From Clostridia bacterium (GTDB lineage Bacteria > Bacillota_A > Clostridia > Oscillospirales > CAG-272), in NCBI GenBank assembly GCA_017501345.1, contig JAFVXC010000027.1:52153-116152 (forward strand): a stretch of DNA of 64,000 nucleotides, in the 5' to 3' direction. Shown in pieces: positions 11,857 through 43,010 of the stretch. The translations under genes were made by a program, and so were the position numbers. The notes beneath the pieces were generated by a model. That model worked only from the letters and a program-made list of their open reading frames with translations, was not told where the DNA came from and searched no databases. Every line of letters begins with the position of its first letter. Position 1 is the stretch's first letter.

Positions 11857-12180
11857 TTGCAGGGCTCTGCCCTGCACCCGCTTAAGAACCTTCTTGAAAG
11901 AAGGTTCTTAAGAATCTCCAAGAACTTTTCGGGGAGGGGGAAAGGAGGGGGCGAGGCGCTGCCTCGGGCTCCGCAAGGGAACTTTTTGAAAAAAGTCCCC
12001 TTGACCCTCAAAAACTTTTCGGAAAGGGGAGGGATCATCCGCCTTCTCGGTCGTAAATTCGAGCCACTCTACGCATTCCGTGCGGGTCCGACCGTGGACC
12101 CCCGAGAATCGGGAACCCCTCGGACGAGCCTCGGGAACCTCCGATTCCCACCCCCTATTCGGACGTAGGGGATACGGTGT
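11857..12180 (+). repeat. Dispersed intergenic repeat R1, long copy
   Basis: Fills the 400-bp gap between parC and the Sua5 gene. It starts GCAGGGCTCTGCCCTGC, then a perfect hairpin TTAAGAACCTTCTTGAAAG/GAAGGTTCTTAA (about 11882-11911), then ATCTCCAAGAACTTTTCGGG, a second AAAACTTTTCGGAAAGGGG motif, CATCCGCCTTCTCGGTCG and the CTACGCATTCCGTG segment. Related copies lie at 13.3-13.6, 20.6-20.9, 33.75-33.83 and 42.77-43.0 kb. No protein is encoded. Confidence 0.8.
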
Positions 12181-16218: not shown

Positions 16219-16303
16219 TAGCCTCTCTCTATGGGACGCGAAGCGGCGCCACGGTAGTGAATGACACCACAGTGTGGTGTCAGAGCCGTAGCGAGACGGT
16301 GTC
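16219..16303 (-). repeat. Palindromic intergenic repeat R2, short copy
   Basis: GGGACGCGAAGCGGCGCCACGG, then TGACACCACAGTGTGGTGTCA (16262-16282, a perfect palindrome around AG/TG) and GAGCCGTAGCGAGACGGTG. It lies between the transglycosylase gene, whose stop codon falls at its edge, and the aminopeptidase gene. The other two copies are in lipoprotein leaders at 20.2 and 29.8 kb, in the same orientation relative to the downstream gene. Confidence 0.88.
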
Positions 16304-18952: not shown

Positions 18953-19456
18953 ATGCACGACGAATTGACACAGGTCGATATCGACAAAATGAAGGAGGAG
19001 ATCCGCTACCGCAAATCGGAGCTCGATCCCCAGCTGAAGGAAATGCTGAAGACTGCGAGGGAGCTTGGCGACCTCAGCGAGAACGACGAATATAAGCAGG
19101 CAAAGAGGGAGCTCGGAAGGAATCGCGGCCGCATCCGCTATCTTGAGAATATGATCGCCACGGCGAAGGTCATCACCGACACGTCGGGAGAAAACGAGGT
19201 CGGGCTGTTCGACTTCGTTGAGATCTACTACGAGGAGGACGACGAAACGCGCACGGTGCGCATCGTGACGACGCTTCGGAACGACGTCCTGAACGACTGC
19301 ATCTCAAAGGAGTCGCCCGTCGGACGCGCACTACTTGGACGGAAGGTCGGCGACCGCGTGACGGTGAAGGTCAACGATCGCGTGAGCTATCCCGTCGTCA
19401 TCAAGTCGCTCCGTAAGGGCGAGGACGACGCGTCCCTGCCGATCTCGGAGTATTGA
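18953..19456 (+). CDS. greA: Transcription elongation factor GreA/GreB family
   Basis: 167 aa. N-terminal coiled coil with the acidic tip seen as TARELGDLSENDEYKQAKRE (about 37-56), which reaches into the RNA polymerase secondary channel and stimulates transcript cleavage. The C-terminal FKBP-like domain carries SPVGRALLGRKVGDRVTV. Single-gene unit with its own promoter and terminator. Confidence 0.94.
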   Translation: MHDELTQVDIDKMKEEIRYRKSELDPQLKEMLKTARELGDLSENDEYKQAKRELGRNRGRIRYLENMIATAKVITDTSGENEVGLFDFVEIYYEEDDETRTVRIVTTLRNDVLNDCISKESPVGRALLGRKVGDRVTVKVNDRVSYPVVIKSLRKGEDDASLPISEY

Positions 19457-19471
19457 GCATATAGAAAAATC

Positions 19472-19509
19472 GGGTGAGCCTCACGCCTTGCGGCACGGGC
19501 TCACCCTTT
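19472..19509. terminator. Intrinsic terminator, GTGAGCC type
   Basis: GGGTGAGCC and GGGCTCACCC arms around a CACGCCTTGCGGCAC loop, then TTTT. It ends greA and probably also the convergent lipoprotein gene. Near-identical hairpins lie at 25373-25405 and 31411-31445. Confidence 0.9.
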
Positions 19510-19525
19510 TCTGTTTCTTGTACGG

Positions 19526-20149
19526 TTATTGCGCCTTCTGTTCGTTTCGGTTTACGACCTCAAGAGGAATTTTGACGGTATCGTATCCCTCTCCGAAAAC
19601 AGGAAAACCGTAAACGTACTCACCCTTGATGAAGAACTCGGGTGTCACACGGAGGGCTCTCTCGAATACGATCGTCCCCCCTACGGGAAGCGTTCGCTCG
19701 ATCCCTTCCCCTATATAGACCACGCTATAGTCAATTTCTTGACCCTCCGGCTCGTGTACGGGGAAAAATTTCACCGATCTGCCAACCTCATAGTCCCCCC
19801 ACTGATAGATCAAGCCAAGCATATTCGTAGCATCGTATACAAATTCATTATCCGAGTCATTCGTCATCGTGATCCTGACCTGCATCAAGGAGCCAATCGG
19901 GTAAAACTCTTCGAAAAACTCGACTCGATAAAAAATGTCGTTGATCGTCTTTTCATACACAAGCGGAGTCACAACGCCGATGTCGTATTCGATCATCAAT
20001 TCGTCCTCGACCGTCTCCGAAAGATGCCACTGCGGCGTATGTTCCCCTCCGCTCGCATCAGCAGACGTTTCGTCTCCGCCCTGCGTGTTCGTGCATCCGA
20101 CACAGAATAGGACGCACAGCACGAGAAGCAGGCATAGTAATTTTTTCAT
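19526..20149 (-). CDS. Lipoprotein, family LP member 1
   Basis: 207 aa. Signal peptide MKKLLCLLLVLCVLFCVGC with the lipid-modified Cys at 19 (the -3 residue is Cys, a slightly unusual lipobox), then TNTQGG and a Thr/Ser/Gly/Glu linker. The mature domain, probably a beta-sandwich, shows WHLSETVEDEL, YEKTINDIFYRVEFFEEFYP and GSLMQVRITMTNDSDNEFVY. Paralogs: 29987-30679, 30702-31379 and, more distantly, 25476-26156. The asparagine-rich strand motif is like extracellular Ig-like or BsuPI-type domains, but I cannot assign a function. It is transcribed from the conserved attenuated leader at 20345-20560. Confidence 0.85.
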   Translation of the reverse strand: MKKLLCLLLVLCVLFCVGCTNTQGGDETSADASGGEHTPQWHLSETVEDELMIEYDIGVVTPLVYEKTINDIFYRVEFFEEFYPIGSLMQVRITMTNDSDNEFVYDATNMLGLIYQWGDYEVGRSVKFFPVHEPEGQEIDYSVVYIGEGIERTLPVGGTIVFERALRVTPEFFIKGEYVYGFPVFGEGYDTVKIPLEVVNRNEQKAQ

Positions 20150-20198
20150 TGTCAGGTTCCTCCTTTCGAAAATGTAAAAATGTTGTGTTCATCGAATG

Positions 20199-20335
20199 GG
20201 GGGCGTAAAGCCTCCCCCTTTGGGACGCGAAGCGGCGCCACGGTAGTGAATGACACCACGGTGTGGTGTCAGAGCCGTGGCGAGACCGAGCCCGCAGGCG
20301 AGACGGTGGCGGCGTAGCCGACGGAGAGGGCTCTC
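20199..20335 (-). repeat. Palindromic repeat R2, leader copy
   Basis: GGGGGCGTAAAGCCTCCCCC hairpin, GGGACGCGAAGCGGCGCC, TGACACCACGGTGTGGTGTCA palindrome and GAGCCGTGGCGAGACCGAGC, ending with GTAGCCGACGGAGAGGG. It lies in the 5' leader of lipoprotein LP1, between the leader terminator and the ribosome site. The copy at 29788-29943 is nearly identical. Confidence 0.88.
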
Positions 20336-20344
20336 CTATGGACA

Positions 20345-20560
20345 ACCCAAAAAGCGCACGGATACCCTATCTCTACGGAATCCGTGCACCTGACTTCTGA
20401 TTGTTTCGTTCTGTTTGCCGTTTGGCTGAAAGTCGTGCGCGGAACCTTCCGTTCAGGCGAGGCTTTCTGTTTACGACTCTATTTTACCATATTTTTCCGC
20501 GGTTGTCAAGAGATATACGCGAATTTCGCAGAGACGTTCGTTCGACAAAATCCGACGCGG
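20345..20560 (-). promoter_or_regulatory. Conserved promoter-leader-terminator cassette, copy A
   Basis: Minus strand: upstream GTCGGATTTTGTC, then TTGACA (complement of 20504-20509), 17-bp spacer GCGGAAAAATATGG, TAAAAT (20481-20486), AGAGTCGTAAACAGAAAGCC, hairpin CGGAAGGTTCCG, GCGCACGACTTTC, and about 60 nt later an intrinsic terminator (GCACGGAT arms, 20354-20388, then TTTTT). The lipoprotein gene begins about 200 nt further on, so transcription must pass this terminator. Same cassette as at 27986 and 29585. Confidence 0.82.
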
Positions 20561-20639
20561 GAGCACCGAGGCGCTCCCCTACGGGGTGGCTTGCGTTCCT
20601 ATGTAGAGATCGGCCTCCTGCACGGTCTGCTTTGCAGGT

Positions 20640-20880
20640 CTCTTTCCCCGAGGCTCTGCCTCGGACTCCGCTTAAGAACCTTCTTGAAGGAAGGTTCTTA
20701 AGAATCTCCAAGAACTTTCCGGGGAAAGGAAGAAAGAACATCCGCTTTCTCGACCGGAGGGCGAGCAGGCTACGCATTCTTTCCGTGTTCGCTCCTGAGG
20801 CCTCTGTCTCGGAGACTATCTCGGACGAGCCTCGATAGATCCCTCGACACCTCACTCGCGGACGTGACGTGGAGTGTGTC
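20640..20880 (+). repeat. Dispersed intergenic repeat R1
   Basis: CGCTTAAGAACCTTCTTGAA hairpin with GGAAGGTTCTTAAG (about 20674-20702), ATCTCCAAGAACTTTCCGGGG, CATCCGCTTTCTCGACCG, CTACGCATTC, TGTTCGCTCCTGAGGC, TCTCGGAGAC and CGACACCTCACTCGCGGACGT. The order matches the copies at 11.9 and 42.8 kb. Confidence 0.85.
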
Positions 20881-20883
20881 GCT

Positions 20884-20945
20884 CTACTCTCAAGCCTCCC
20901 CCCGCAGGGGAGGTGCCGAGCAAAGCGAGGCGGAGAGGGTTCTCC
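20884..20945. repeat. Double-hairpin element next to R1
   Basis: GCCTCCCCCCGCAGGGGAGG hairpin followed by GCCGAGCAAAGCGAGGC and GGAGAGGG. Half of the MITE-like pattern seen at 31.7 and 54.2 kb. Ends just downstream of the membrane-protein stop codon. Confidence 0.6.
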
Positions 20946-20952
20946 TGCGGAC

Positions 20953-22695
20953 TCAGTATATCCGATCCTCCGCCTCTGCGCCCCAGATGTTCTCCGAGAA
21001 GACAAAGACGTAGTAGCCCTCTGCCATAAAGTCGCGGACGTAGGCACGCTTATTCAGATCGACCCAATAATCGCTCAGTGCGATCGTCTGATACTCAGAG
21101 CCCGAGAGCAGGACGAAGTATTCGTCGACGCCCTCCTGGTCCTCGTACCACTTGAGGCTTGACTGATAATGGTCGGTCGTGATGCCCCAGAGGTCATCCT
21201 TGTCGTTCTTCACGAGGATCTCGCGGCACTTGACAGCGGAATCCGACAGAAGCGTGATCGACTGTGAGCGCCAGAAGGTCGCGTAGCCGTAGGAAAGGCC
21301 CTCCGATTCGAGCCGCTCTGCAAGGCGGTGAAGCTCATTGTCTCTGCCGTAGTCAAAGGGCATATCCGCGATCAGCTTCGCGTTGTAGGACGAGAGGAGA
21401 GCCAGCACGACGAGCACGAGCACACCGCCGCGCACGGTGCAGATCGCCGTTTGGCGGTGTGTCCACGCCTCACGGACGAGCGCGACCGTCGTAAGGATCG
21501 CCGAGCCGACGAGGGGAACGAGCCTCCAGTTTGCGGCGGCAAGCCGTCCGCAGACGCATCCGAAGAAGAGGAAGGCGAAGAGGAAGGTGTGTCCGATCAG
21601 AAGCACGCGCGTGTAGCGGCTGTCGATCCGCTTGTAGCAGCAGAGTCCGACGAGCGGAACGATGAGGAGCAGGAGAGAGACGCCGATGCGCAGGATGTTT
21701 ACGATTGAGTCAAGCGTAAAGAGCTCGTCGGTCTTTGCAACGTCCATTCCGAGGAGGGTAAGCCAGTTCATAAAGAATTTGTCGAGATTCGACGCCCATT
21801 CCGAGGTGCTTGAGTAGCGCGAGTAGGCGGTCGCGTATCCCGAGGAGATTCCGCCGAGGAGAGATTTCAGGATGACCGTGCCGATCAAAACACCTGCGAC
21901 CGAGACGACGAGGACGAGGAGCGGAGGGATATTCTTCCGCGAGGCGAGCGGGGTCTCACGGTCGAAAAGCCGCTCGAGAAAGACGCCCGCACAGACGGGA
22001 ACGACGGTGAGAACGAGCATCTGGAAGCCGTTCGTTGCGGAGAGCGCGACGAAAACGAAGAGTCCTGCGAGGGGGAGAAAACGGAGGACGGGCTTTTTAT
22101 CGGCTCTCTCAAGCGCCTCCCACGCGAAAAACGTGAGGGCAAGCGCAAAAAAGTAGAGCAGCAGCCCGAGGCTGTAATAAATGACGTGATTCCACATGAT
22201 CTCGCGGAGCTTTTCCGACGACGAGAGGATGAGGAGGAGGAGCGCCGACGTGCCGAACGCCGCGGCGTACGACCACTTCATCTTGCGGCAGAGCACGATG
22301 ATCGACGCGAGGAAAAGGAGCGCGAAGATCACCATACCGATGACGTGCGTCGTCATCGTAACGCCGAAAACCGCAATCAGCGGCACGAGCCAGAGCGACG
22401 CGCCGAAGGGGAGAAGGGCGGCGTAATTGAAGTCGGGATTAAAAATCCTTCCCGCGTCGTAGGTCGCCTCTGCCCAGAGGAGCGAGTCGGTGCAGTCTGC
22501 GTGGAAGTATCCCTCCGCAGGGCCTACGATAAAGTAGATGCAAAGGGAGAGGGCGAGGAGCGCGGCGAGTGCGCACAGAATGAGCGGCAGATGCTTCCGC
22601 GCTTTACGGAGGATCGCTCCGAGGTCGGGCTTTCCGGGCTTCGCGGAGGACTCGCTCGGAGCACCGCTCGGGATATCATTCGGGAGACTGTTCAT
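20953..22695 (-). CDS. Multi-pass membrane protein, GT-C glycosyltransferase-like
   Basis: 580 aa. About eleven hydrophobic segments between residues 35 and 440, then a 140-aa soluble extracytoplasmic tail. A large loop after the first helix carries GYFHADCTDSLLWAEATYDA, reminiscent of the acidic first-loop site of GT-C polyprenyl-phosphate-sugar transferases, and a final WITTDHYQSSLKWY-type region. No named family recognised, so transferase activity is an inference. 23 bp downstream of the GH78-like gene in the same direction, likely one operon. Confidence 0.7.
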   Translation of the reverse strand: MNSLPNDIPSGAPSESSAKPGKPDLGAILRKARKHLPLILCALAALLALSLCIYFIVGPAEGYFHADCTDSLLWAEATYDAGRIFNPDFNYAALLPFGASLWLVPLIAVFGVTMTTHVIGMVIFALLFLASIIVLCRKMKWSYAAAFGTSALLLLILSSSEKLREIMWNHVIYYSLGLLLYFFALALTFFAWEALERADKKPVLRFLPLAGLFVFVALSATNGFQMLVLTVVPVCAGVFLERLFDRETPLASRKNIPPLLVLVVSVAGVLIGTVILKSLLGGISSGYATAYSRYSSTSEWASNLDKFFMNWLTLLGMDVAKTDELFTLDSIVNILRIGVSLLLLIVPLVGLCCYKRIDSRYTRVLLIGHTFLFAFLFFGCVCGRLAAANWRLVPLVGSAILTTVALVREAWTHRQTAICTVRGGVLVLVVLALLSSYNAKLIADMPFDYGRDNELHRLAERLESEGLSYGYATFWRSQSITLLSDSAVKCREILVKNDKDDLWGITTDHYQSSLKWYEDQEGVDEYFVLLSGSEYQTIALSDYWVDLNKRAYVRDFMAEGYYVFVFSENIWGAEAEDRIY

Positions 22696-22718
22696 ACGTA
22701 CATCCTTTCTTTATTCTG

Positions 22719-24824
22719 TCAATCGGTCGTATTTCCAAAGAAGAGATCCTTATATTTTGCGTAAAGCACGATCGGGAACGCCGACCAGCCGTGGCAGAGG
22801 GAGCCCGCATTGCGGAAGGCGGATTCTCCCGCCTCGACCTCCCAGAAGGAGGTCGCACCCGCGTCGAGCATTGCACCGAAGCGCTCCCCGATCTCGTCGA
22901 GCACAAGCGTCGCGTAACGCTCGGGACGCCTGAGAAGTGCCTCGTAGCGGAAGATCCCCATTGCAAGCGTCGAGGGCACGAGCCCGTCTTTTTTGTAAAT
23001 GCGGTCGAGCAGTGCGTCGAGCCTTTCCTCGGGAACGGCGCCGCAAAGGACGCAAAGGATCTGCGTCAGCTCGCCGTAGTGCGGTTCTCCCTTTCTGTAA
23101 GGCGAGCCGTCCGAGAGCGAAACGCCGAGCGACGTGCGGTAGAGCCCGACCTCCTCGTCAAAGAAGCAGTCGTTCAGCCGCTCGCACAGCTCCTCGGAGC
23201 AGTGCAGTGCCGCGTCGCCCTCGTCGTACATCTTGTCGTCCCCGATCTCCTGGCCGAGCTTCATCAGAAGCTCCGCGTACGCGGTGAACGCCATCGCGAC
23301 GAATGCGAAAAGGGGGGCGTCGTAGGTCATCTCCTCGGGGCTCTGCTCCTTGCCGATCGCACCCGAAAGACCGTCCGACCACTCATAGAAATTCCAGTAT
23401 TCCTTCTGCCTGTATGCGGGGAGCATCCAGTCATTGTGCTTCATTCTGCCGTAGAAGCCCGAGAGGATCTCGTACGCCGCAGGGAGCAGCTCGAGCGTTG
23501 TTTCGCGGTCGCCCGAGTTGTCGAAGTATTCCCGAAGCGCGATCACGAATGCCGCAGAGAACGCGGGGATCGTGACGGATACCCTTGCGGGTGCGCACAG
23601 CTCGACGAGGGCGTCGGGACGGAGGGTATCGGCAAAGAGGCGGAGGGAGGACGCCGTCATCGCGGTCTCGCAGAAGGCGTAGTATGCCGCGAGCATCTCG
23701 CTCCGTGCGTCCATTGCGTACAGAGCCTGCTCTCGCCACGGACAGTCCTCGTAGTGGTCGTGCATACAGAGGCGGAGCGTGTGGCGCGCAACGCGCTCGA
23801 TCTCTCCGTGTATCGAATCCTCGGGGGCGTACAGGGGCTTTTCCTTTACGGGATATTCGGCTGAGTAGAGCGTCGGCGTTACATCGATCGGCGCTGTTCC
23901 GACCGTAAACACCTGCAAATAGCGCAGCCCGAGACGGAGGAAGGGAAGAAGGACCTCATAGGGTCCCTTCGGCACCTTGACGCGGAAGGCGAAATTGCGC
24001 CGTCCGATCGCCGTGCGGCATCTGCCGTCCGAAAGATGCTCGCCGTAGCCGATGAGAAGCTCGGTCGGCTCGCTCGATTCGGTCGCGAGCGAGAGATACG
24101 CGGTCTCCTCGCGCCCGACGTCGTAGATCGCGTAGTGTCCGATCGGAGCATCGCTGTCAAGAAGTGCCTTTTGCATCCGCACGGCGTGACGGTCTTTTTC
24201 GCCCTCCGAAAGGTCACCGTCCCGCCATTTGCCCGCCGAAACGAGCGATAGGGGTAGCGCTCTGTCGGTACGAAAGCGCGGGATCGGTCGGGGAAAGACC
24301 TCGTCGGGCATATCCGTAAGCTCGACCGCGCTGTGCGTCGGTGTTTCCTCGGCGCATCCGTCGAAGTCGAGGGAGAAGCCGAGCTGTGACGAGACCATAG
24401 GGACGTCGCCGCTCGTGTAATTCGGATTTCTGCGGCACTGCGTCGCCTTCGAGCTTATGGCGACGGGCTCACCGTTTTCAGACAGTACAAAGCGGAGCGC
24501 GGGGCGGTTCTTCCGATAGGTCGAAAGCTCCTTGTTCGGGCAGTAGACCGTGATTTTCAGGGTGTGCGCACCGACGGGAAGCGCGTCCGTGACGTCTGCC
24601 TCCTCGTACGTCTTGCGCGCGGGAATATCGGGGTAGGCGTGGAAGAGGATCGGGACGTGTGCGCCGTCGAGAAAAACGGCGAAGTCCGCATCGGCGGAGA
24701 CCGCGAGACGGTAGCGCGCGCCGCTGTGCACCGTGATCGGTACGAAGAAATCGGCATAGAGATTGACGCGGTCCGTGTCACCGTCGCAAAAGATCCATTT
24801 CGCTGCCGAAGGACTGTTGTTCAT
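22719..24824 (-). CDS. Alpha-L-rhamnosidase-like glycoside hydrolase (GH78-related)
   Basis: 701 aa without a signal peptide, so probably cytoplasmic. An N-terminal beta-sandwich (about 1-330, including FFVPITVHSGARYRLAVSAD) precedes an (alpha/alpha)6 barrel. DCPWREQALYAMD at about residue 357 reproduces the Asp+0, Glu+5, Asp+12 spacing of the GH78 acid site, and ATSFWEVEAGES near 655 gives the second acidic residue. It would release terminal rhamnose or a related sugar from oligosaccharides. The overall fold is shared with other alpha/alpha barrels, so the substrate is tentative. Upstream promoter at 24886-24914. Confidence 0.82.
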   Translation of the reverse strand: MNNSPSAAKWIFCDGDTDRVNLYADFFVPITVHSGARYRLAVSADADFAVFLDGAHVPILFHAYPDIPARKTYEEADVTDALPVGAHTLKITVYCPNKELSTYRKNRPALRFVLSENGEPVAISSKATQCRRNPNYTSGDVPMVSSQLGFSLDFDGCAEETPTHSAVELTDMPDEVFPRPIPRFRTDRALPLSLVSAGKWRDGDLSEGEKDRHAVRMQKALLDSDAPIGHYAIYDVGREETAYLSLATESSEPTELLIGYGEHLSDGRCRTAIGRRNFAFRVKVPKGPYEVLLPFLRLGLRYLQVFTVGTAPIDVTPTLYSAEYPVKEKPLYAPEDSIHGEIERVARHTLRLCMHDHYEDCPWREQALYAMDARSEMLAAYYAFCETAMTASSLRLFADTLRPDALVELCAPARVSVTIPAFSAAFVIALREYFDNSGDRETTLELLPAAYEILSGFYGRMKHNDWMLPAYRQKEYWNFYEWSDGLSGAIGKEQSPEEMTYDAPLFAFVAMAFTAYAELLMKLGQEIGDDKMYDEGDAALHCSEELCERLNDCFFDEEVGLYRTSLGVSLSDGSPYRKGEPHYGELTQILCVLCGAVPEERLDALLDRIYKKDGLVPSTLAMGIFRYEALLRRPERYATLVLDEIGERFGAMLDAGATSFWEVEAGESAFRNAGSLCHGWSAFPIVLYAKYKDLFFGNTTD

Positions 24825-24885
24825 AGAGGATTCCTTTCCCGCGGCAGAGAAGGGAGCCGCGCAAGGTGCTTTTCGTGATACCTAT

Positions 24886-24914
24886 ATCATACCGCATTTT
24901 CTTTGGTTTGTAAA
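24886..24914 (-). promoter_or_regulatory. Promoter for the GH78-like/membrane protein operon
   Basis: Minus strand TTTACA (24909-24914), 17-bp spacer, TATGAT (24886-24891). Confidence 0.72.
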
Positions 24915-24964
24915 GGGGATTTTCGACGGCTTTTTATTTTTCTGAAAAAAATTTCAAAAAGGGC

Positions 24965-24993
24965 TTGCTTTTTTTGTTTTGTTGTGGTATAAT
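24965..24993 (+). promoter_or_regulatory. secG promoter
   Basis: TTGCTT at 24965-24970, 17-bp spacer, TATAAT at 24988-24993, 55 bp before the start codon. Confidence 0.8.
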
Positions 24994-25048
24994 GACACGT
25001 ACGTGAATTTTTGGATTTATGATATTTTTTCTTGGAGGTCCCATTATT

Positions 25049-25288
25049 ATGGAAATCGCGCTCGGTATTGTTATGCTGGTGCTTGCACTCACCCTCGTCG
25101 TCTGCGTTCTGATGCAGTCGGGCAAGGACAAGAGCCTCTCGGGCTCGATCGCAGGTATGTCGGAGTCCTTCCTCGGTAAGGACAGAGCAAAGAAGGCGGA
25201 CAAGATCTGGAACAGACTGACGATCATCTGCGGTATTCTGTTTGTCATTCTTGACGTCGTGATGTACATTTTCGTCATCAACAACTGA
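25049..25288 (+). CDS. secG: Preprotein translocase subunit SecG
   Basis: 79 aa from ATG 25049 (MEIALGIVMLVLALTL; TTGGAGG nine bases upstream). Two transmembrane helices (about 3-22 and 55-75) flank the conserved loop LMQSGKDKSLSGSIAG. SecG assists SecYE/SecA protein export. A single-gene unit followed by an intrinsic terminator. The first in-frame ATG at 25019 is rejected because it has no ribosome site. Confidence 0.94.
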   Translation: MEIALGIVMLVLALTLVVCVLMQSGKDKSLSGSIAGMSESFLGKDRAKKADKIWNRLTIICGILFVILDVVMYIFVINN

Positions 25289-25297
25289 TCTCTGAAC

Positions 25298-25359
25298 ACC
25301 GACAACGTAAAAGCATCGATCTCTCCTCGCGGAGACGGCGGTGCTTTTTTGTTTTGCAC
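25298..25359 (+). terminator. secG terminator, duplicated element
   Basis: GCATCGATCTCTCC/GGAGACGGCGGTGC hairpin followed by TTTTTTGTTTT. The 62-bp block ACCGACAACGTAAAAGC...TTTTGCAC is repeated without change at 28201-28262, where no gene ends. Confidence 0.88.
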
Positions 25360-25372
25360 GCCGAAAAAACGA

Positions 25373-25412
25373 GGTGAGCCTCACGCCTTGCGGCACGGGC
25401 TCACCCGTTTTG
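25373..25412. terminator. GTGAGCC-type hairpin, second copy
   Basis: GGTGAGCC/GGGCTCACC arms with the loop CACGCCTTGCGGCAC, then GTTTTGATTT. It lies between secG and the end of the LP4 lipoprotein gene. Confidence 0.8.
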
Positions 25413-25475
25413 ATTTATGCGTGTGATTTTCTGTTTTCAAAAGTTCTCTTTTTCAGCGCATTCCCCATAAAAAGC

Positions 25476-26156
25476 TCAAGAAACACGGAAGTAGAAATCA
25501 CAGAATGCCTCGTTGTAATTGAAGACCTCGTTTTCGGACAACGCGAAGGTCAAGTAATGAAAGGCCTCAGGCAAGAGGGGCGAAATCTCAATAGAAAGGT
25601 TCAGCGTGACCGACTCACCCGGGGCAAGCGTCATATGAAAAGGCTCTTCCTCACTTATCTTTTCATACTCCTCGCGTTGCTCGATCTCCGGTACGGCAAA
25701 ATACGGGAGCTCACTCTGATAAGCGTGACGATTATTAACCAGAGTATGCAGATAGCACGAAAGATCCGCACCCGTGTTGTTCGTGTAAGTCACCGTTCCC
25801 TCGATCCATCCCGGGTCAGCCGGCTCCGGAACCTCCCAAAAATCAACACGGAACAGAATGCCGTTCCGTTCCTGCTCGTAGTATCCGACGGATGGAATGG
25901 TGTACACTTGTGTCAAATAATTCAATTCGGTTTCCGAGGAATCAGTGGTATGATCTTCTTCATTCGACGATTCGTCGGGAATCGTGTTCTCGTCAGAACC
26001 CGGTTCTGATGAAGACTCGTTCGGAATCTCGGCAGAACTCGGTTCCGATGAAGACTCGTTCGGAGTTTCGGATGTTTCCGTTCCCTCCGTCGTATCGCAA
26101 GACAATAACGTGAGGATAAGACAACTCAAAAGTAACATAACTATGACTTTTTTCAT
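25476..26156 (-). CDS. Lipoprotein, family LP member 4, in subtilase operon
   Basis: 226 aa from ATG 26156 (MKKVIVMLLLSCLILTLLSC; CAGGAGG upstream), lipid Cys at residue 20. The linker (about 21-75) is Ser/Glu/Thr/Asp-rich with repeated PNESSSEP-type units, an acidic surface stalk. The mature domain keeps the LP core: YEQERNGILFRVDFWE and GTVTYTNNTGADLSCYLHTL, but it lacks the PxGSxxQ segment of LP1-3. It starts 24 bp after the subtilase stop and must share its transcript. A role as partner, anchor or inhibitor of the protease is possible but unproven. Confidence 0.85.
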   Translation of the reverse strand: MKKVIVMLLLSCLILTLLSCDTTEGTETSETPNESSSEPSSAEIPNESSSEPGSDENTIPDESSNEEDHTTDSSETELNYLTQVYTIPSVGYYEQERNGILFRVDFWEVPEPADPGWIEGTVTYTNNTGADLSCYLHTLVNNRHAYQSELPYFAVPEIEQREEYEKISEEEPFHMTLAPGESVTLNLSIEISPLLPEAFHYLTFALSENEVFNYNEAFCDFYFRVS

Positions 26157-26180
26157 AAAACCTCCTGACACGGATTAAAC

Positions 26181-27950
26181 CTATTGATACCATACGATCG
26201 CGTAATCCGACTCGGTAGCGATCGAAGGGCGGGTGGTATTGATATTATCCGCATATCTCGTTATGTGGATCTCGAAGGAAGTTTCATCAAAAGGCTCGAA
26301 TTCCAATATCTTGACGTTTTGGTATGCGTACAGTAAACCATGAATAAGCCCGCCGTAATCGTTGTAGACGTCAATTCCAAGAGTGGGCGTAGGAAAATCT
26401 TGCGTAAAGGTAACTGGTCGAATATATACAAAAGCAACTCTGACAGGATCCATCTCACTGCAATTCAAGCTGTGGCAGTTATAAGCCCCTAACGATTGTC
26501 CGATCGTCCCTTCGATCGTTCTCGTTTGACGGTGAACAATCGCTTGTCTGACCTTTTCTCCATCGATCACTCCTGCACCGAAGGTTTGATATTCGTCGTC
26601 TCCCGTTTCGTAGGAATGTTCGTCCATTGTGGAACAGACGATTGTTGCTTTGTTCAGCGCAGGATTGTTGAGATAAGCCGTGTCGCGAGACATCATAATT
26701 GCGATAATGGCTGTAATTATAGGTGCGGCAAAACTAGTACCTGGTTCAATCTCAGCAGAACCGTTAAATTTGGAACATCCCGGTGCTGAAATATCCGGTT
26801 TGGAGGGAAGCTGTGAGGATCCGCTGTAATAGCTCGATTGTTCATGCATGCAGTTGTTCCCGGCATCGAAGTTGCCAACAGATATAATGTTATAAGCCAT
26901 ACCACCACTGGTAATACCGTCTGCTCCTTCATTTCCGGCACTCTTCACAACGGTCAGATTATACGTGCATATAATTTGGTCTAAGTAATATGCGACCGCA
27001 CCGTATGTGTTGTCGGGATCGTATACACCGGTAGTCGGCGAGGAAATCGTAGCGCTAATGTTAACGACCGTAACACCGTTTTCCAGAAACCAATCAAATT
27101 CCTGTTGACAGACTACCGCTAATATTCCGCAATAGAAAGTCGCGTGAGGTGCAAGGGATGCAAGTATTTCCAAAACATCCGAAGCATGGTTGCTTTCACC
27201 AGCATTTGAATAATGACATATAATCTTTCCAGTAGCATTCAGCGAAGCATAGGCACTACGAGCCTCCGGATTTCCTCCGTCTATCATTCCAACCTTGACA
27301 GTAGTGTTTGTGGGCATAGAGCTTCGTAAAGCTCCTGCATTGATGTATTGAATATTATCTTCAATGGTATAACCAAAGGATCTTGAATTGTCTCCATTGG
27401 TGGTCGAAAGTGCAGGGGTGAGCTCGGTTTCCATCGTCCCTTCGTCATAGTAGTCTATGAATTCCACGACAGCAAGGTTCGAAATCGCTTTGATTCGCGC
27501 GGGGGTCAGCTCTGCAATAATAGTGGGGAGATAGACACTGGCGTAGACGATCTCGTCATCGGTCAAAAAATTCGATTCGAAGTGTGCGGTATAGGGCTCG
27601 TAGCAAAGGCGCAACGCGGCACGCTTGACTTCGATGGAGCGCGTCGTTTCATTCGGAGCGGTCGATGTTCGCTCTACTTCTTGAATGGTTTCGAGTCGCG
27701 TTTGAAAATCGGGTAGCGATTTGGTCGCGAGCGCTTCCTCGGTGTCGTAGTCCTTCAGCCAGATCGCAACGCGTATTTTTTCTTCACTGCGTGATTCCAT
27801 TATACTTTGTAAGGTCGTGGTGACGATCTGCGGTGCGGGGATTTTTGTCGTATCCAGCGCGCTTGCCGACATCAGAAAAGCAGGGTAGGCAAGCAGTACG
27901 CACAAAACGACTGCCAAGACTTTCAGGACGTTTTTGTTAGAATTTCTCAT
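26181..27950 (-). CDS. Secreted subtilisin-like serine protease (S8)
   Basis: 589 aa. Signal peptide about 1-32 (cleavage near SASALD), then an inhibitor-I9-like prodomain (about 58-170, with VAIWLKDYD and VVEFIDYYDEG). The catalytic domain has Asp224 (VGMIDGG), His255 (SNHASDVLEI), oxyanion Asn340 (KSAGNEG) and Ser406 (GTSFAAP). The His motif is NHASD instead of the usual HGTHV. About 150 residues follow the catalytic core, without a sortase motif or SLH repeats. The transcript starts from leader cassette B and continues into lipoprotein LP4. Probably cleaves proteins or peptides outside the cell. Confidence 0.92.
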   Translation of the reverse strand: MRNSNKNVLKVLAVVLCVLLAYPAFLMSASALDTTKIPAPQIVTTTLQSIMESRSEEKIRVAIWLKDYDTEEALATKSLPDFQTRLETIQEVERTSTAPNETTRSIEVKRAALRLCYEPYTAHFESNFLTDDEIVYASVYLPTIIAELTPARIKAISNLAVVEFIDYYDEGTMETELTPALSTTNGDNSRSFGYTIEDNIQYINAGALRSSMPTNTTVKVGMIDGGNPEARSAYASLNATGKIICHYSNAGESNHASDVLEILASLAPHATFYCGILAVVCQQEFDWFLENGVTVVNISATISSPTTGVYDPDNTYGAVAYYLDQIICTYNLTVVKSAGNEGADGITSGGMAYNIISVGNFDAGNNCMHEQSSYYSGSSQLPSKPDISAPGCSKFNGSAEIEPGTSFAAPIITAIIAIMMSRDTAYLNNPALNKATIVCSTMDEHSYETGDDEYQTFGAGVIDGEKVRQAIVHRQTRTIEGTIGQSLGAYNCHSLNCSEMDPVRVAFVYIRPVTFTQDFPTPTLGIDVYNDYGGLIHGLLYAYQNVKILEFEPFDETSFEIHITRYADNINTTRPSIATESDYAIVWYQ

Positions 27951-27985
27951 AATGACGTCTCCTTTCGAAAAATATTTGTAAAATC

Positions 27986-28195
27986 AAAAAGCGCACGGAT
28001 ACCCCTTACGAAGGATCCGTACGCCGCTTGCACATTTGATGTCAATATACCGTAGAAAGTCGTGCGCGGAACCTTCCGTTCGGGCGAGGCTTTCTGTTTA
28101 CGACTCTATTTTACCATATTTTTCCGCGTCTGTCAAGGAGCGCACGCGAATTTTGTGCGGGCTTTCTTTTGACAAAATTCGACAGCGGGGTGGCA
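27986..28195 (-). promoter_or_regulatory. Conserved promoter-leader-terminator cassette, copy B
   Basis: Minus strand: GTCGAATTTTGTC, TTGACA (28131-28136), 17-bp spacer, TAAAAT (28108-28113), GAGTCGTAAACAGAAAGCC, CGGAAGGTTCCG hairpin, GCGCACGACTTTC, TACGGTATATTGACATCAAA, then terminator arms GCGTACGGATCC/GGTATCCGTGCGC and TTTTTG (27986-28023). The subtilase ATG is about 35 nt beyond the terminator. From the promoter to the terminator it is nearly identical to copy C at 29.6 kb, which points the other way. Confidence 0.85.
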
Positions 28196-28200
28196 AGCCA

Positions 28201-28262
28201 ACCGACAACGTAAAAGCATCGATCTCTCCTCGCGGAGACGGCGGTGCTTTTTTGTTTTGCAC
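28201..28262 (+). repeat. Exact second copy of the secG terminator block
   Basis: All 62 bases match 25298-25359. Here it lies upstream of the oxidoreductase promoter and behind the divergent leader B. It can still form the terminator hairpin and may insulate the two units. Confidence 0.92.
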
Positions 28263-28335
28263 ACCGAGGACGTAGGATGAGATGCCGTGTGAGATCGAAA
28301 CAGCAATATTTGTCCGAAAAAACCCGATTGATGTC

Positions 28336-28364
28336 TTGAAAAGTGGCAGGCGTTGTCTTATACT
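28336..28364 (+). promoter_or_regulatory. Promoter for the Gfo/Idh oxidoreductase gene
   Basis: TTGAAA at 28336-28341, 17-bp spacer, TATACT at 28359-28364. Confidence 0.78.
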
Positions 28365-28431
28365 AAAAACACGAACAGACCCGCTCACGCATCGGGCGGG
28401 GAAGCAAAAACCGAAAGGAGCTGTGACGGAT

Positions 28432-29520
28432 ATGGAACAGAAGAAGGTAAACGGTGCCGTAATTGGCTACGGCGGTATGGGAGGCTGGCACGTTCGCTAC
28501 CTCAGAGAAAGCGACCGCGTGCATCTGTGCGGCATCTATGACATCAAGGAGGCGAGAAGAGCGGCTGCCGAGGAGGCGGGTGTCTACGCATATCCCTCGT
28601 GGGAGGCGGTGCTGAAGGACGAAAAGGTCGATTTCGTGACCCTTGCCGTTCCGAACGAGCTGCATAAGCCCCTTGCGATCGAGGCGCTCCGTGCGGGCAA
28701 GCACGTGATCTCCGAGAAGCCCGTGACCCTTGACTGCGTCGAGCTCGACGAGATCTGCAAGGTCGCCGAGGAGACGGGCAAGCTCTTCACGGCGCATCAG
28801 AACCGCCGTTGGGACTGCGACTACCTGATGACGCGCGAGGCGTACCGCTCGGGTAAGCTCGGCAAGATTACCTCGGTCGAATCCCGCTACCAGGGCTCGC
28901 GCGGCATCCCCGGCGACTGGAGAGGCAAGAAGGAGCACGGCGGCGGTATGATCTACGACTGGGGCGTGCACCTGATCGACCAGATGCTCGGCATCATCGA
29001 CGACAAGAGGATTGAGAGCGTCTATTGCCGCTGTGACCATATCACGAACGACGAGGTGGACGACGGCTTCAAGCTCGATCTCCACTTCGAGGGCGGTCTC
29101 CTCGGACACATCGAGGTCGGAACGACCAACTTTATCTCGCTCCCGCGCTTCTATATCACGGGTGTGAACGGCACGGGCGTTGTAAACGACTGGAGAGACG
29201 AGTGCCGCGTCGTGCTTTGTAAGACGTGGGAGGATAAGGACGTCGCACCTGTCGTCACCTCTGCGGGCTTCACGAAGACGATGGCACCGAGAGACGAAAA
29301 GACGACAACCGAGTACACGATCCCGCGTCCCGCATCCGACGTGCACGAGTTCTACCGCAATTTTGCGGATGCGATCCTCGCAAATGATCCCGCGCTCCTG
29401 CTCGTCACCCACGCGCAGCTGAAGAGATCGATGAAGCTGATGCTCGCGGCGTTCGAGTCGGACGCCCTCGGCGCACCCGTTAAGATCGAGGACGAGGCGA
29501 TCGCAAGACCGATCCGATAA
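28432..29520 (+). CDS. Gfo/Idh/MocA family oxidoreductase
   Basis: 362 aa from ATG 28432 (MEQKKVNGAVIGYGGMGGWH; GAAAGGAG upstream). Rossmann motif GAVIGYGGMGGWHVRYL and HVISEKPVTLDCVELDEI with catalytic Lys. The substrate domain has GGGMIYDWGVHLIDQMLG, where Asp/His in DWGVHLID is the usual active-site pair. NAD-dependent sugar or cyclitol dehydrogenase; substrate not assignable. Own promoter and terminator. The gene is enclosed by inverted copies B and C of the leader cassette. Confidence 0.9.
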   Translation: MEQKKVNGAVIGYGGMGGWHVRYLRESDRVHLCGIYDIKEARRAAAEEAGVYAYPSWEAVLKDEKVDFVTLAVPNELHKPLAIEALRAGKHVISEKPVTLDCVELDEICKVAEETGKLFTAHQNRRWDCDYLMTREAYRSGKLGKITSVESRYQGSRGIPGDWRGKKEHGGGMIYDWGVHLIDQMLGIIDDKRIESVYCRCDHITNDEVDDGFKLDLHFEGGLLGHIEVGTTNFISLPRFYITGVNGTGVVNDWRDECRVVLCKTWEDKDVAPVVTSAGFTKTMAPRDEKTTTEYTIPRPASDVHEFYRNFADAILANDPALLLVTHAQLKRSMKLMLAAFESDALGAPVKIEDEAIARPIR

Positions 29521-29544
29521 GCGAAAGAGAATCACGCACCCGAA

Positions 29545-29570
29545 GGGGCGAACGCAGTTCGCCCCTTTTT
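29545..29570 (+). terminator. Terminator of the oxidoreductase gene
   Basis: Perfect GGGGCGAAC/GTTCGCCCC hairpin with a GCA loop and five T. Confidence 0.92.
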
Positions 29571-29584
29571 GCCTCCCCGAATTC

Positions 29585-29787
29585 CGTCGGATTTTGTCAA
29601 AAAGAAAGCATCCGCAAAAATTGCGCGCGCCCTCTTGACAGTCGCGGAAAAATTTGGTAAAATAGAGTCGTAAACAGAAAGCCTCGTAGGGGTGCTACGC
29701 TTCCGCGCACGACTTTCTACGGTATATTGACATCAAATGTGCAAGCGGCGTACGGATCCTTCGTAAGGGGTATCCGTGCGCTTTTTG
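29585..29787 (+). promoter_or_regulatory. Conserved promoter-leader-terminator cassette, copy C
   Basis: GTCGGATTTTGTCAAAAAG, TTGACA (29635-29640), 17-bp spacer, TAAAAT (29658-29663), AGTCGT (29666-29671), apical hairpin CGTAGGGGTGCTACG in place of CGGAAGGTTCCG in copies A and B, ACGACT (29709-29714), TATATTGACATCAAATGTGC, terminator arms GCGTACGGATCC (29748-29759) and GGTATCCGTGCGC (29769-29781), then TTTTTG. The replaced apical loop still pairs, which favours a functional RNA structure. The gene it serves, LP2, begins 200 nt downstream. Confidence 0.85.
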
Positions 29788-29943
29788 ATTTGTCCGCAGG
29801 GGGGAGACCTCTCCGTCGGCTACGCCGCCACCGTCTCGCCTGTGGGCTCGGTCTCGCCACGGCTCTGACACCACACCGTGGTGTCATTCACTGCCGTGGC
29901 GCCGCTTCGCGTCCCAAAGGGGGAGGCTTTACGCCCCCCATTC
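29788..29943 (+). repeat. Palindromic repeat R2, second leader copy
   Basis: Reverse-complement match of 20199-20335: CCTCTCCGTCGGCTACGCC, GGCTCTGACACCACACCGTG palindrome, GGCGCCGCTTCGCGTCCC, then the GGGGGAGGCTTTACGCCCCC hairpin. It lies between the leader terminator and the LP2 ribosome site, in the same orientation to the gene as in LP1. Confidence 0.9.
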
Positions 29944-29986
29944 AATGGACACAACATTTCGCATTTTTGAAAGGAGGAACCTGACA

Positions 29987-30679
29987 ATGAAAAAATTACT
30001 ATGCCTGCTCCTCGTGCTATGTGTCCTATTCTGTGTCGGATGCACGAACACGCAGGGCGGGGACGAGCCCTCGGATACGCCGCAGGACAGCGGCTCAGGC
30101 GAGCAGAATCCTCCGGGCGAATCATCGGGCGAATGGATGCCGACCGAGGAATACACCCCTGCGTGGCACCTTTCGGAGACGCTTCAAAATGAGATCACAC
30201 TCCCCGAGGTGCCCAAGGAGCTGTCGGGATATGTCGTAAGGGTTCCGAAGGTGTACGAGGAAATATGCGACGGCGTTCTGTTCCGGGTCGAATTTTTCCA
30301 CGAATACTACCCCCTCGGCTCACTGATACAGGTCAGGGTCCAAATGCAAAACAACACGGGGAAGGAGATCGTTTACGGCAGCAATTCTTCTGCGTTAGGG
30401 GATTTCTGCCTTAAAGGGCAGAGCAAAAGCCTTTATTGGAGAGAATCTATCCTTGACCCCGGGAATGTAAACGGAGAAGATTTCTATTTTACGTGTGTTA
30501 GCCGGGAGACAGAATTTCCTGCGGGTGAAACGTTTACGTACGAGCGCGTCTATACCGCAGAGCCCTCGTTCTTTACGAGCGACGGAGCCTTCGTATTCCG
30601 TTTCTCACTATTTGAAGTCAAAACCGGGATAAACCGATCCATCGAGGTTCCAATCTCCGTTGTGATGCTTCCGGAATGA
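29987..30679 (+). CDS. Lipoprotein, family LP member 2
   Basis: 230 aa from ATG 29987 (AAAGGAGGAAC upstream). The signal peptide MKKLLCLLLVLCVLFCVGC is identical to that of LP1, followed by a Gly/Ser/Glu/Pro-rich linker to about residue 60. The mature domain has WHLSETLQNEITLPE, YEEICDGVLFRVEFFHEYYP and GSLIQVRVQMQNNTGKEIVY. The 5' part and leader are nearly identical to LP1 while the 3' part has diverged, the pattern of a recent duplication. Followed 22 bp later by LP3. Confidence 0.86.
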   Translation: MKKLLCLLLVLCVLFCVGCTNTQGGDEPSDTPQDSGSGEQNPPGESSGEWMPTEEYTPAWHLSETLQNEITLPEVPKELSGYVVRVPKVYEEICDGVLFRVEFFHEYYPLGSLIQVRVQMQNNTGKEIVYGSNSSALGDFCLKGQSKSLYWRESILDPGNVNGEDFYFTCVSRETEFPAGETFTYERVYTAEPSFFTSDGAFVFRFSLFEVKTGINRSIEVPISVVMLPE

Positions 30680-30701
30680 AGAAAAAAGGAGGAAACTGAC
30701 A

Positions 30702-31379
30702 ATGAAAAAGCTATTTTGTCTGCTTCTCGTGTTGTGCGTCCTGCTCTCGGTCGGATGTACAAACACGCAGGGCGGCGGCGAGACTACTACTGGTCCGAAT
30801 GGCGACGAAACGACCGCCGACCCGAACGGCGGGGAGACGACGGGCGCGCAGAATCCACCCATCGAATACACCCCACAGTGGCATCTTTCGGGAACGTTCA
30901 ACGGCGACCTGCTCGTTTCGTATGATGAAAATGACGGCTATATGATCAAGATCCCGCAGACTCAATATGAGGAGAATATTAACGGCTTCCTTTTCCATAT
31001 CGACTTTTTTGAGGACTACTATCCCGCAGGCACAATGATGCAATATAGAGTCTCGATCACGAACAATACGAGCGAGGACATTCGGTATGACGCAAAATCC
31101 ACGATCGGCAGGATCACGAACGGAAGCGGTCGGTCAGAGCTTTTTTCCGTGGTATATCCAACGAATTTGGATTATTTTACGGACGACGTTGACGAGCGCA
31201 CGCTTCCTATGGGTAAAACGGTCGTGTTTGAGTGTGCAACCCGTGTGGATAACTCCTTTTTTGCAGAAGGGGACTACACGTTACACATCAATTTGAGGAG
31301 GCTTTCCTCCTCGGCCTCCCCACCGCGTGAATACGCCGCATTCTCTTACCCGGTAGAGGTTAAAAATTTCAATCGGTAA
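30702..31379 (+). CDS. Lipoprotein, family LP member 3
   Basis: 225 aa. Signal peptide MKKLFCLLLVLCVLLSVGC with lipid Cys at 19, then TNTQGGGE and a short repeat of Gly-Asp/Glu-Thr-Thr units (GDETTADPNGGETTG). The mature domain has YTPQWHLSGTFNGDLLVSYD, YEENINGFLFHIDFFEDYYP and GTMMQYRVSITNNTSEDIRY. AAGGAGG is placed just before the start. It is second in the LP2-LP3 unit; no separate promoter is evident in the 22-bp gap. Confidence 0.85.
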   Translation: MKKLFCLLLVLCVLLSVGCTNTQGGGETTTGPNGDETTADPNGGETTGAQNPPIEYTPQWHLSGTFNGDLLVSYDENDGYMIKIPQTQYEENINGFLFHIDFFEDYYPAGTMMQYRVSITNNTSEDIRYDAKSTIGRITNGSGRSELFSVVYPTNLDYFTDDVDERTLPMGKTVVFECATRVDNSFFAEGDYTLHINLRRLSSSASPPREYAAFSYPVEVKNFNR

Positions 31380-31410
31380 CAGACCTTTCACGGTAGGTCT
31401 GAAACAAAAA

Positions 31411-31445
31411 GGGTGAGCCCGTGCCGCAAGGCGCGAGGCTCACCC
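31411..31445. repeat. GTGAGCC-type hairpin, inverted third copy
   Basis: GGGTGAGCCC/GAGGCTCACCC arms with a CGTGCCGCAAGGCGC loop. The T-rich side is on the minus strand (AACAAAAA before 31411), so as a terminator for LP3 on the plus strand it is weak; a smaller AGACCT/AGGTCT hairpin lies just before. Confidence 0.7.
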
Positions 31446-31514
31446 GCAGCATTTGTTCCCGAAATCCGTCGCACCCTGCCGAAAAGAATTTCGTACGAAA
31501 TTCGCGGTAGCCCC

Positions 31515-42764: not shown

Positions 42765-43010
42765 TTCTTCCGAGGCGCCGCCTCGGGCTCCGCTTAAGAA
42801 CCTTCCTTTGGGAAGGTTCTTAAGAATCTCCAAGAGCTTTTCGGGAAGGGAAGAAAGAACATCTACGTTGTTGGTCAGAATTTGGGGCAGCTCTACGCCA
42901 TCCACCCGTGTCCGCTCCTGAGGTTCTCCGTCTCGGAGACCGCTTCAGATAGCTTCAGCGGATCTCTCGACACCTCACTCGCGGACGTGAGGATCAATCC
43001 CCGCCCCGAT
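42765..43010 (+). repeat. Dispersed intergenic repeat R1
   Basis: CGGGCTCCGCTTAAGAACC, hairpin TTAAGAACCTTCC/GGAAGGTTCTTAA, ATCTCCAAGAGCTTTTCGGG, CATCTACG, CTCTACGCCATCC, GTCCGCTCCTGAGG, TCTCGGAGACC and CGACACCTCACTCGCGGACG. Same order as at 20.6 kb. Confidence 0.85.

Follow-up and report, generated by a model that had tools for sequence, protein, structure and literature searches.

A recurrent promoter-leader-terminator cassette before exported-protein genes in Clostridia, a candidate transcription-attenuation leader

The window analysed here, a stretch of 64,000 nucleotides from the genome of a Clostridia bacterium (contig JAFVXC010000027.1), carries three copies of an intergenic cassette composed of a promoter, a leader and a terminator, denoted A, B and C. 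Counted from the -35 element to the end of the terminator U-run, copy A extends over 20349..20509 (-) and precedes the lipoprotein gene P0006 (19526..20149, -), copy B extends over 27986..28136 (-) and precedes a subtilase gene (26181..27950, -) whose product has a signal peptide and a Peptidase_S8 domain (Pfam PF00082, E 5.7e-16), and copy C extends over 29635..29786 (+) and precedes the lipoprotein gene P0012 (29987..30679, +). A second gene, encoding a lipoprotein, follows behind both B and C, P0011 (25476..26156, -) and P0013 (30702..31379, +), respectively. P0013 belongs to the family of P0012, has no leader of its own and is 82% like P0012 in its 5' region. All three cassettes had been located by a first-pass annotation of this DNA and were re-found in the sequence, and the lipoproteins at A and C belong to one family, as had been proposed there. 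The further proposal that the subtilase operon holds another family member stands in a weaker form: P0011 is only a distant relative of the A/C family, with 29% identity to the C lipoprotein over 119 amino acids that partly represent linker. P0011 is 39% identical over 170 amino acids to P0009, which unites a C-type signal peptide with a P0011-type mature part. Signal peptides differ little among these lipoproteins, whereas overall identity to the lipoprotein of C is only 36-43% for seven of nine relatives.

Copies A, B and C each contain the promoter elements TTGACA and TAAAAT, separated by 17 nt, and the start region AGAGTCGTAAACAGAAAGCCTCG, followed by a variable middle and the terminator. 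Among 14 promoter-like sites in a scan of positions 19400-31500, these promoters were the best three, with 11 of 12 consensus bases, the 17-nt spacer and a TG before the -10 element. The 16-mer GGTAAAATAGAGTCGT occurs exactly three times, compared to 0.43 occurrences expected with up to three mismatches. The upstream words pointed out by the first-pass annotation are present as GTCGGATTTTGTC in A (20544..20556, -) and C (29586..29598, +) and as GTCGAATTTTGTC in B (28171..28183, -), but alone none of them goes beyond chance; GTCGGATTTTGTC has four matches with up to two mismatches versus 2.4 expected. Judged from the spacing to the -10 element, transcription should start at about the second G of AGAGTCG, and most of AGTCGT would therefore lie outside the RNA. 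The AGTCGT...ACGACT pair, described earlier as a shared feature of the copies, does overlap the expected start site, but folds closed by AGUCGU/ACGACU hardly differ from shuffled sequences (z 0.12 in B and -0.42 in C), and AGAAAG/CUUUCU would be a likelier outer stem inside the RNA.

The position of AGTCGT over the expected start site would suit a DNA operator, with the upstream words or AGTCGT itself as the binding site of a repressor or activator and with the RNA features being incidental. Conservation of the upstream words in three paralogues and a roughly similar GCAAAAT stretch upstream of the cassettes in genome G011 (see below) point in the same direction. We nevertheless consider such an operator very unlikely, given that the upstream words alone are near chance and that, by eye, neither they nor AGTCGT are evident in three other genomes with the cassette (G057, G343 and G004), where promoter, hairpin core and terminator are.

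The leader of each copy contains a hairpin, referred to as hairpin 1, and ends in an intrinsic terminator. From sequence and alignment, hairpin 1 of copy A was placed at 20428..20467 (-), with a GAAAG/CTTTC outer stem and a CCTGAAC..GTTCCG core, and that of copy B at 28054..28095 (-), with an AGAAAG/CTTTCT outer stem and a CCCGAAC..GTTCCG core. In copy C, sequence and fold place it at 29676..29718 (+), again with the outer stem AGAAAG/CTTTCT and with a replaced apical stretch, CGTAGGGGTGCTACG, which differs from the other copies and yet still pairs, as the first reading of the sequence had it. The terminators lie at 20349..20390 (-) in A, 27986..28024 (-) in B and 29748..29786 (+) in C, the last being identical to that of B by sequence comparison. 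Their stems fold far better than shuffled sequences (z -4.66 in A, -4.10 in B and -4.1 in C); a simple terminator scan omits all three, as it accepts loops of 3-8 only. Hairpin 1 is no more stable than its shuffles in the window (z -0.37 in A, -1.05 in B, -0.67 in C) and deviates from the core common to the wider family by a C.C in place of C.A, by one unpaired position in A and B and by the replaced apex in C. Both properties speak against an attenuator. The distance from terminator to gene is 35 nt in B and about 200 nt in A and C.

In A and C this interval contains a UTR repeat, located at 20178..20336 (-) and 29801..29959 (+), respectively, and 96% identical over 159 nt. Together with 16220-16297, these two stretches represent an intergenic repeat of 78-159 nt with a palindromic core, 92-96% alike. 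Two more repeats were found in the window, a terminator-like one of 67 nt, 99% identical between 25298-25364 (after a secG-like gene) and 28201-28267 (adjoining copy B), and a third intergenic family of 76 nt at 11858-11933, 20648-20723 and 42770-42845, 79-88% alike.

A pairwise comparison of A, B and C in 50-nt blocks, starting at the -35 element, reveals a changing pattern of relatedness. In the first 50 nt, each pair has 94-96% identity. The leaders of A and C match poorly (54-60%); the two copies then resemble each other again across terminator, UTR and signal-peptide codons (88-98% in six blocks, 76% in the next), before identity drops to 36-68% in the remaining coding region. B and C are alike in the leader (82% and 100%) and diverge past the terminator. 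The longest common stretches are 91 nt at 100% between B and C, and 159 nt at 96% plus 110 nt at 94% between A and C. A, B and C are thus mosaic paralogues, and their mosaic identity suggests gene conversion or module exchange. It also favours the first of two serious rivals to a regulatory reading, namely a copied 5' module of promoter, leader, terminator and signal-peptide region, without special control, that spreads by duplication and gene conversion and whose terminator only sets a low constant expression. The same holds for the alike signal peptides on otherwise divergent proteins, for the composition of P0009, and for neighbouring copies in G011 that are near-identical (94% over 247 nt).

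The DnaG encoded in the window reaches a best identity of 60% among the 80 loci listed, and the loci with a related DnaG come from MAGs, most of which bear the title Clostridia or Oscillospiraceae bacterium and many of which originate from ruminant gut. When copy B was compared by BLASTN with 40 of the related genomes, the best match (E 6e-8) was obtained in G011 (Oscillospiraceae bacterium SIG646), with five places spanning the promoter and about 20 nt beyond. These five places are full cassettes, each before a lipoprotein or exported-protein gene. A match in G040 with E 1e-7 stands before a formate acetyltransferase gene and is not a member; likeness of promoter and start region in BLAST is therefore insufficient for membership. 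Overall, the BLASTN matches were for the most part ordinary promoters. The formate acetyltransferase leaders in G040 and G137 resemble the ZTP riboswitch. An RNase J leader, an L21 leader and an IS transposase in G050 were further non-members among the matches inspected. A search of the genome and viral collections for an exact 20-mer from promoter and start region found nothing.

Model R1, built from the three window copies and five G011 copies, was run over 295 genomes and matched in 203 of them at E 0.05. The matches inspected were mostly ordinary promoters; three more G011 copies and one copy each in G004 and G057, with hairpin and terminator, were added by this model. A loose IUPAC pattern was non-discriminating, with matches in 384 of 395 genomes. 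Model R2, whose training set consists of copy A, G004 and five of the G011 copies, comprises hairpin 1 and terminator without the promoter. It was run in the genus of G011 (30 genomes) and the genus of G004 (12 genomes), followed by inspection of the stronger matches. The count beyond the window is 17 copies in four genomes, with eight in G011, at least five in G057 (three weaker R2 matches of 25-29 bits being outside this count), three in G343 and one in G004. Including the genome of the window, the cassette recurs in five genomes. Two G057 copies, scoring 36.9 and 35.1 bits, were counted because promoter and hairpin are present. Rejected R2 matches, which represent terminators or coding sequence, are 13 loci below 35 bits and single matches in G061 (37.1), G034 (36.7) and G020 (39.4).

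In a family sample of 395 genomes, five had a match at E 3e-5: G011, G057, G343, G004 and G020, the last being coding sequence plus terminator and not a member. No carriers beyond the other four were confirmed in this sample, whose scan scored ten candidates per genome and undercounts, as it recovered two of the five G057 copies. The cassette was found in none of 35 genomes in the genus of G001 and neither of two in the genus of G012. It is thus recurrent but rare and patchy, and a distribution of four confirmed carriers among 395 sampled genomes is a further point against an attenuator.

Both R1 and R2 include window sequence. As an independent test, model R3 was derived from only six cassettes, all of them in G011. 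A covariance search across relatives had been suggested by the first-pass annotation, and R3, applied to the window without filters, places A, B and C on top with 51.0, 48.3 and 45.9 bits (E 1e-7 to 1e-6), followed by a next match of 17.7 bits. Among 63 loci, consisting of 54 dnaG neighbourhoods of relatives and nine loci with members, the top eight matches are the five G057 cassettes, the G004 cassette and two of the three G343 cassettes (35.9-44.2 bits; next 25.2); the remaining G343 copy, whose promoter is poor, was missed. Two near-identical promoter-leader-terminator cassettes in G237 (L203:4296-4455 and L204:4366-4526, both on the minus strand), one of them before a lipoprotein gene, score 31.9 and 28.1 bits with R3; they may be a distant member or a look-alike and are not part of the copy count. 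A sequence profile of the whole G011 cassette matches B with 29.1 and A with 27.8 bits at full length, compared to 16.9 for C and 18.5 for the best control in 1.96 Mb of loci. With promoter-only profiles the window copies are not separable from ordinary promoters, and leader-only profiles without window sequence gave no convincing match in the window, the best being the terminator of A at E 0.039, which also counts against an attenuator. Hence, what links the window copies to the others is the combination of promoter, leader and terminator rather than the hairpin alone, and copy C is tied to the wider family mainly via its likeness to B. Very probably, the cassettes form a real family.

The 20 copies share a common anatomy. 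In 18 of them the promoter has 11-12 of 12 consensus bases and a 17-nt spacer, whereas G004 and one G343 copy have 8 of 12; the promoter is also present in six of the seven copies first found by the promoter-free R2. From the end of the -10 element to the end of the U-run, the 18 copies with a good promoter measure 87-132 nt. A terminator lies between promoter and gene in every counted copy, and this order of promoter, leader and terminator before a coding gene fits the general architecture of an intrinsic-terminator attenuation leader. Hairpin 1 has CCGA on each strand in most copies. An alignment of 18 distinct rows, from which copy C was left out, reveals a C.A mismatch in 16 rows (C.C in two window rows), then two G-C pairs, and an A.C mismatch in 16 rows (A-U in two), beyond which the pairs co-vary from C-G to A-U and from A-U to G-C.

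Two-sided changes between standard pairs occur at two of four hairpin-1 pairs and at five of ten terminator pairs, after removal of one false row. With this row included, 97.0% of the cells are paired versus 85.0% in shuffles, two-sided changes are seen at 8 pairs and 37 cells versus 4.9 and 11.2, and the covariation score is 0.442 versus 0.210, none of these values being reached by any of 500 shuffles; further pair types, 15 in number, do not exceed the shuffles (16.1). Structures slid along the alignment pair at most 54.5%. Since the alignment was made to fit the model and paralogues account for many of its rows, the covariation supports the structure but is no proof of it. Likeness of terminators alone is weak evidence, because stems similar to CGCATAGG also occur elsewhere in relatives. 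At L248, L276, L280 and L281, ordinary terminators of several relatives reuse stems similar to CGCATAGG or CACATAGG. Outside the window, the cassettes recur with both compensatory changes and a terminator, features on which the first-pass annotation had made its proposal depend. For a copied 5' module without special control, the preservation of core and architecture across genera with unrelated downstream genes is an obstacle, as are the two-sided changes that keep base pairs, though intrinsic terminators need pairing anyway. We take this rival seriously and regard it as doubtful.

By an automatic rule, 15 of the 20 copies are followed by a gene for an exported or membrane-anchored product (lipoprotein, signal-peptide or anchored protein), whereas the exported fraction amounts to 17% (139 of 804 ORFs) in the background of window and dnaG neighbourhoods, scored with slightly different start-codon rules. 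The binomial value for this excess, 2e-8, ignores kinship among the copies. Judged by eye, 17 of 20 are exported, as two G057 lipoproteins without an SD match failed the automatic rule. The G057 copy C54 is outside the set assigned by eye, the G057 copy C63 has a different gene first, TetR-like by eye, and the G343 copy C21 precedes what looks like a zinc-ribbon-like protein with a membrane stretch. The one G011 lipoprotein compared with the window lipoprotein did not match it, and a ricin-type lectin domain is found in two large exported proteins behind the leader, in G011 and G057. Relatives of the window lipoprotein were matched in 14 of 345 genomes, many via the signal peptide only, and none of the five best loci has the leader (R3 at most 19.1 bits). 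As the products belong to several families and lipoprotein relatives occur without the leader, the leader tracks exported genes and not one protein family. The lack of the leader before these relatives is at the same time an argument against an attenuator. Two observations concern the coding regions in G011. At L114:2763-4034, the cassette is followed by an apparent remnant, out of frame, of the signal peptide found on the large exported protein at L113, and then by lipoprotein genes. The exported proteins behind the leader at L200:1899-3224 and L201:2617-3882 are alike in their ends and membrane anchor and differ in their middles.

The strand and spacing of these genes also bear on the second serious rival, a small-RNA gene. 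Here, the product of the cassette would be an RNA of about 100 nt acting in trans, and the downstream exported gene would have its own promoter or be a target. An own promoter and terminator, several copies per genome and gene starts up to about 350 nt past the terminator in some copies are compatible with this. The presence of an exported gene in the same orientation behind 15-17 of 20 copies and terminator-gene gaps of only 35 nt in B and 25-40 nt in several G011 copies make it unlikely.

Of the explanations considered, we prefer a transcription-attenuation leader that is read through when a candidate trans factor acts, at a probability of about 0.45. A near-consensus sigma-A-type promoter would start a leader of roughly 80-125 nt, which would fold into hairpin 1, whose two G-C pairs are flanked by the C.A and A.C mismatches, and subsequently into the intrinsic terminator, so that most transcripts would stop before the gene. 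Since the terminator separates a near-consensus promoter from the gene, expression would need read-through. The candidate factor, most likely an RNA-binding protein recognising hairpin 1, would let RNA polymerase pass the terminator, and read-through would co-regulate unrelated lipoproteins and exported proteins. Recombination would distribute the cassette itself within a genome, in many cases along with the signal-peptide region. By analogy, the conserved mismatched hairpin within a variable outer stem and loop could be a protein-recognised antitermination site.

Several other routes to read-through were considered. By eye, no competing antiterminator pairing was seen. An ORF starting with MRR, a candidate leader peptide, is present in six of 20 copies, all from G011 and without an SD word, and B and C have a different short ORF. 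A pseudoknot between hairpin 1 and the terminator loop has no support, with mean scores of 10.9 for own pairings and 10.1 for pairings between genomes. LoaP (NF033641) was above the cut-off in none of 20 genomes; 15 of them have one weaker match each to the LoaP profile, as expected of NusG, and G343 and G004, whose genomes may be incomplete, have no match at all. As neither an antiterminator pairing nor a leader peptide, a pseudoknot or LoaP was found, a trans-acting RNA-binding factor is preferred; the negative results for LoaP and for an antiterminator pairing nevertheless also weigh against an attenuator. A riboswitch, with hairpin 1 as the small-molecule binding site and a resulting shift of the terminator, could account for conserved mismatched bases ahead of a terminator. 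We hold it to be highly improbable in view of the small core, of downstream genes without a common pathway, of the unsupported pairing between hairpin 1 and terminator loop, and of the Rfam result: in accordance with the first-pass annotation, which saw no known riboswitch class, Rfam has no match to the leaders (searched up to E 10 for B and C, up to E 5 for the G011 copies and at the gathering threshold only for copy A).

Among described systems, the LoaP leaders of the Bacillus velezensis dfn and mln operons, in which a hairpin-bound protein promotes read-through, resemble the window cassettes in their promoter, small RNA hairpin and intrinsic terminator before the gene; as presented there, however, the hairpin is of the UNCG type, whereas the alignment gives hairpin 1 other loops, and long polyketide operons are controlled instead of exported-protein genes (PMC12691694). 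The Pil1 attenuator of Streptococcus gallolyticus likewise has a premature terminator before a surface-structure gene set, but is described as being opened by a repeat-bearing leader peptide and the ribosome (PMC3894217), and no leader ORF is common to the copies studied here. Structured-RNA candidates from the human microbiome include 508 directly upstream of genes, some with intrinsic terminators, and like the window cassettes are leaders from uncultured gut bacteria; the main text, to which this comparison refers, has 0 occurrences each of lipoprotein, signal peptide and exported, and overlap in the supplementary material is possible (PMC8040213). A literature search outside subscription papers, preprints and supplements met no description of this cassette.

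More tentatively, and with rather low confidence, the cassettes may constitute an RNA-based regulon, in which an RNA-binding antiterminator or a ligand would read the C.A/C-G/G-C/A.C hairpin and jointly switch on sets of surface proteins that are unrelated to each other, while the promoter-leader-signal-peptide module would be shuffled to recruit new surface proteins. The covariance models offer a direct route to a listing of this regulon and, by co-occurrence, to the factor. If true, the cassettes would exemplify a regulatory leader recombining as one unit with signal peptides, and a single leader RNA would co-regulate surface lipoproteins and secreted enzymes of uncultured gut Clostridia at a step after transcription initiation.
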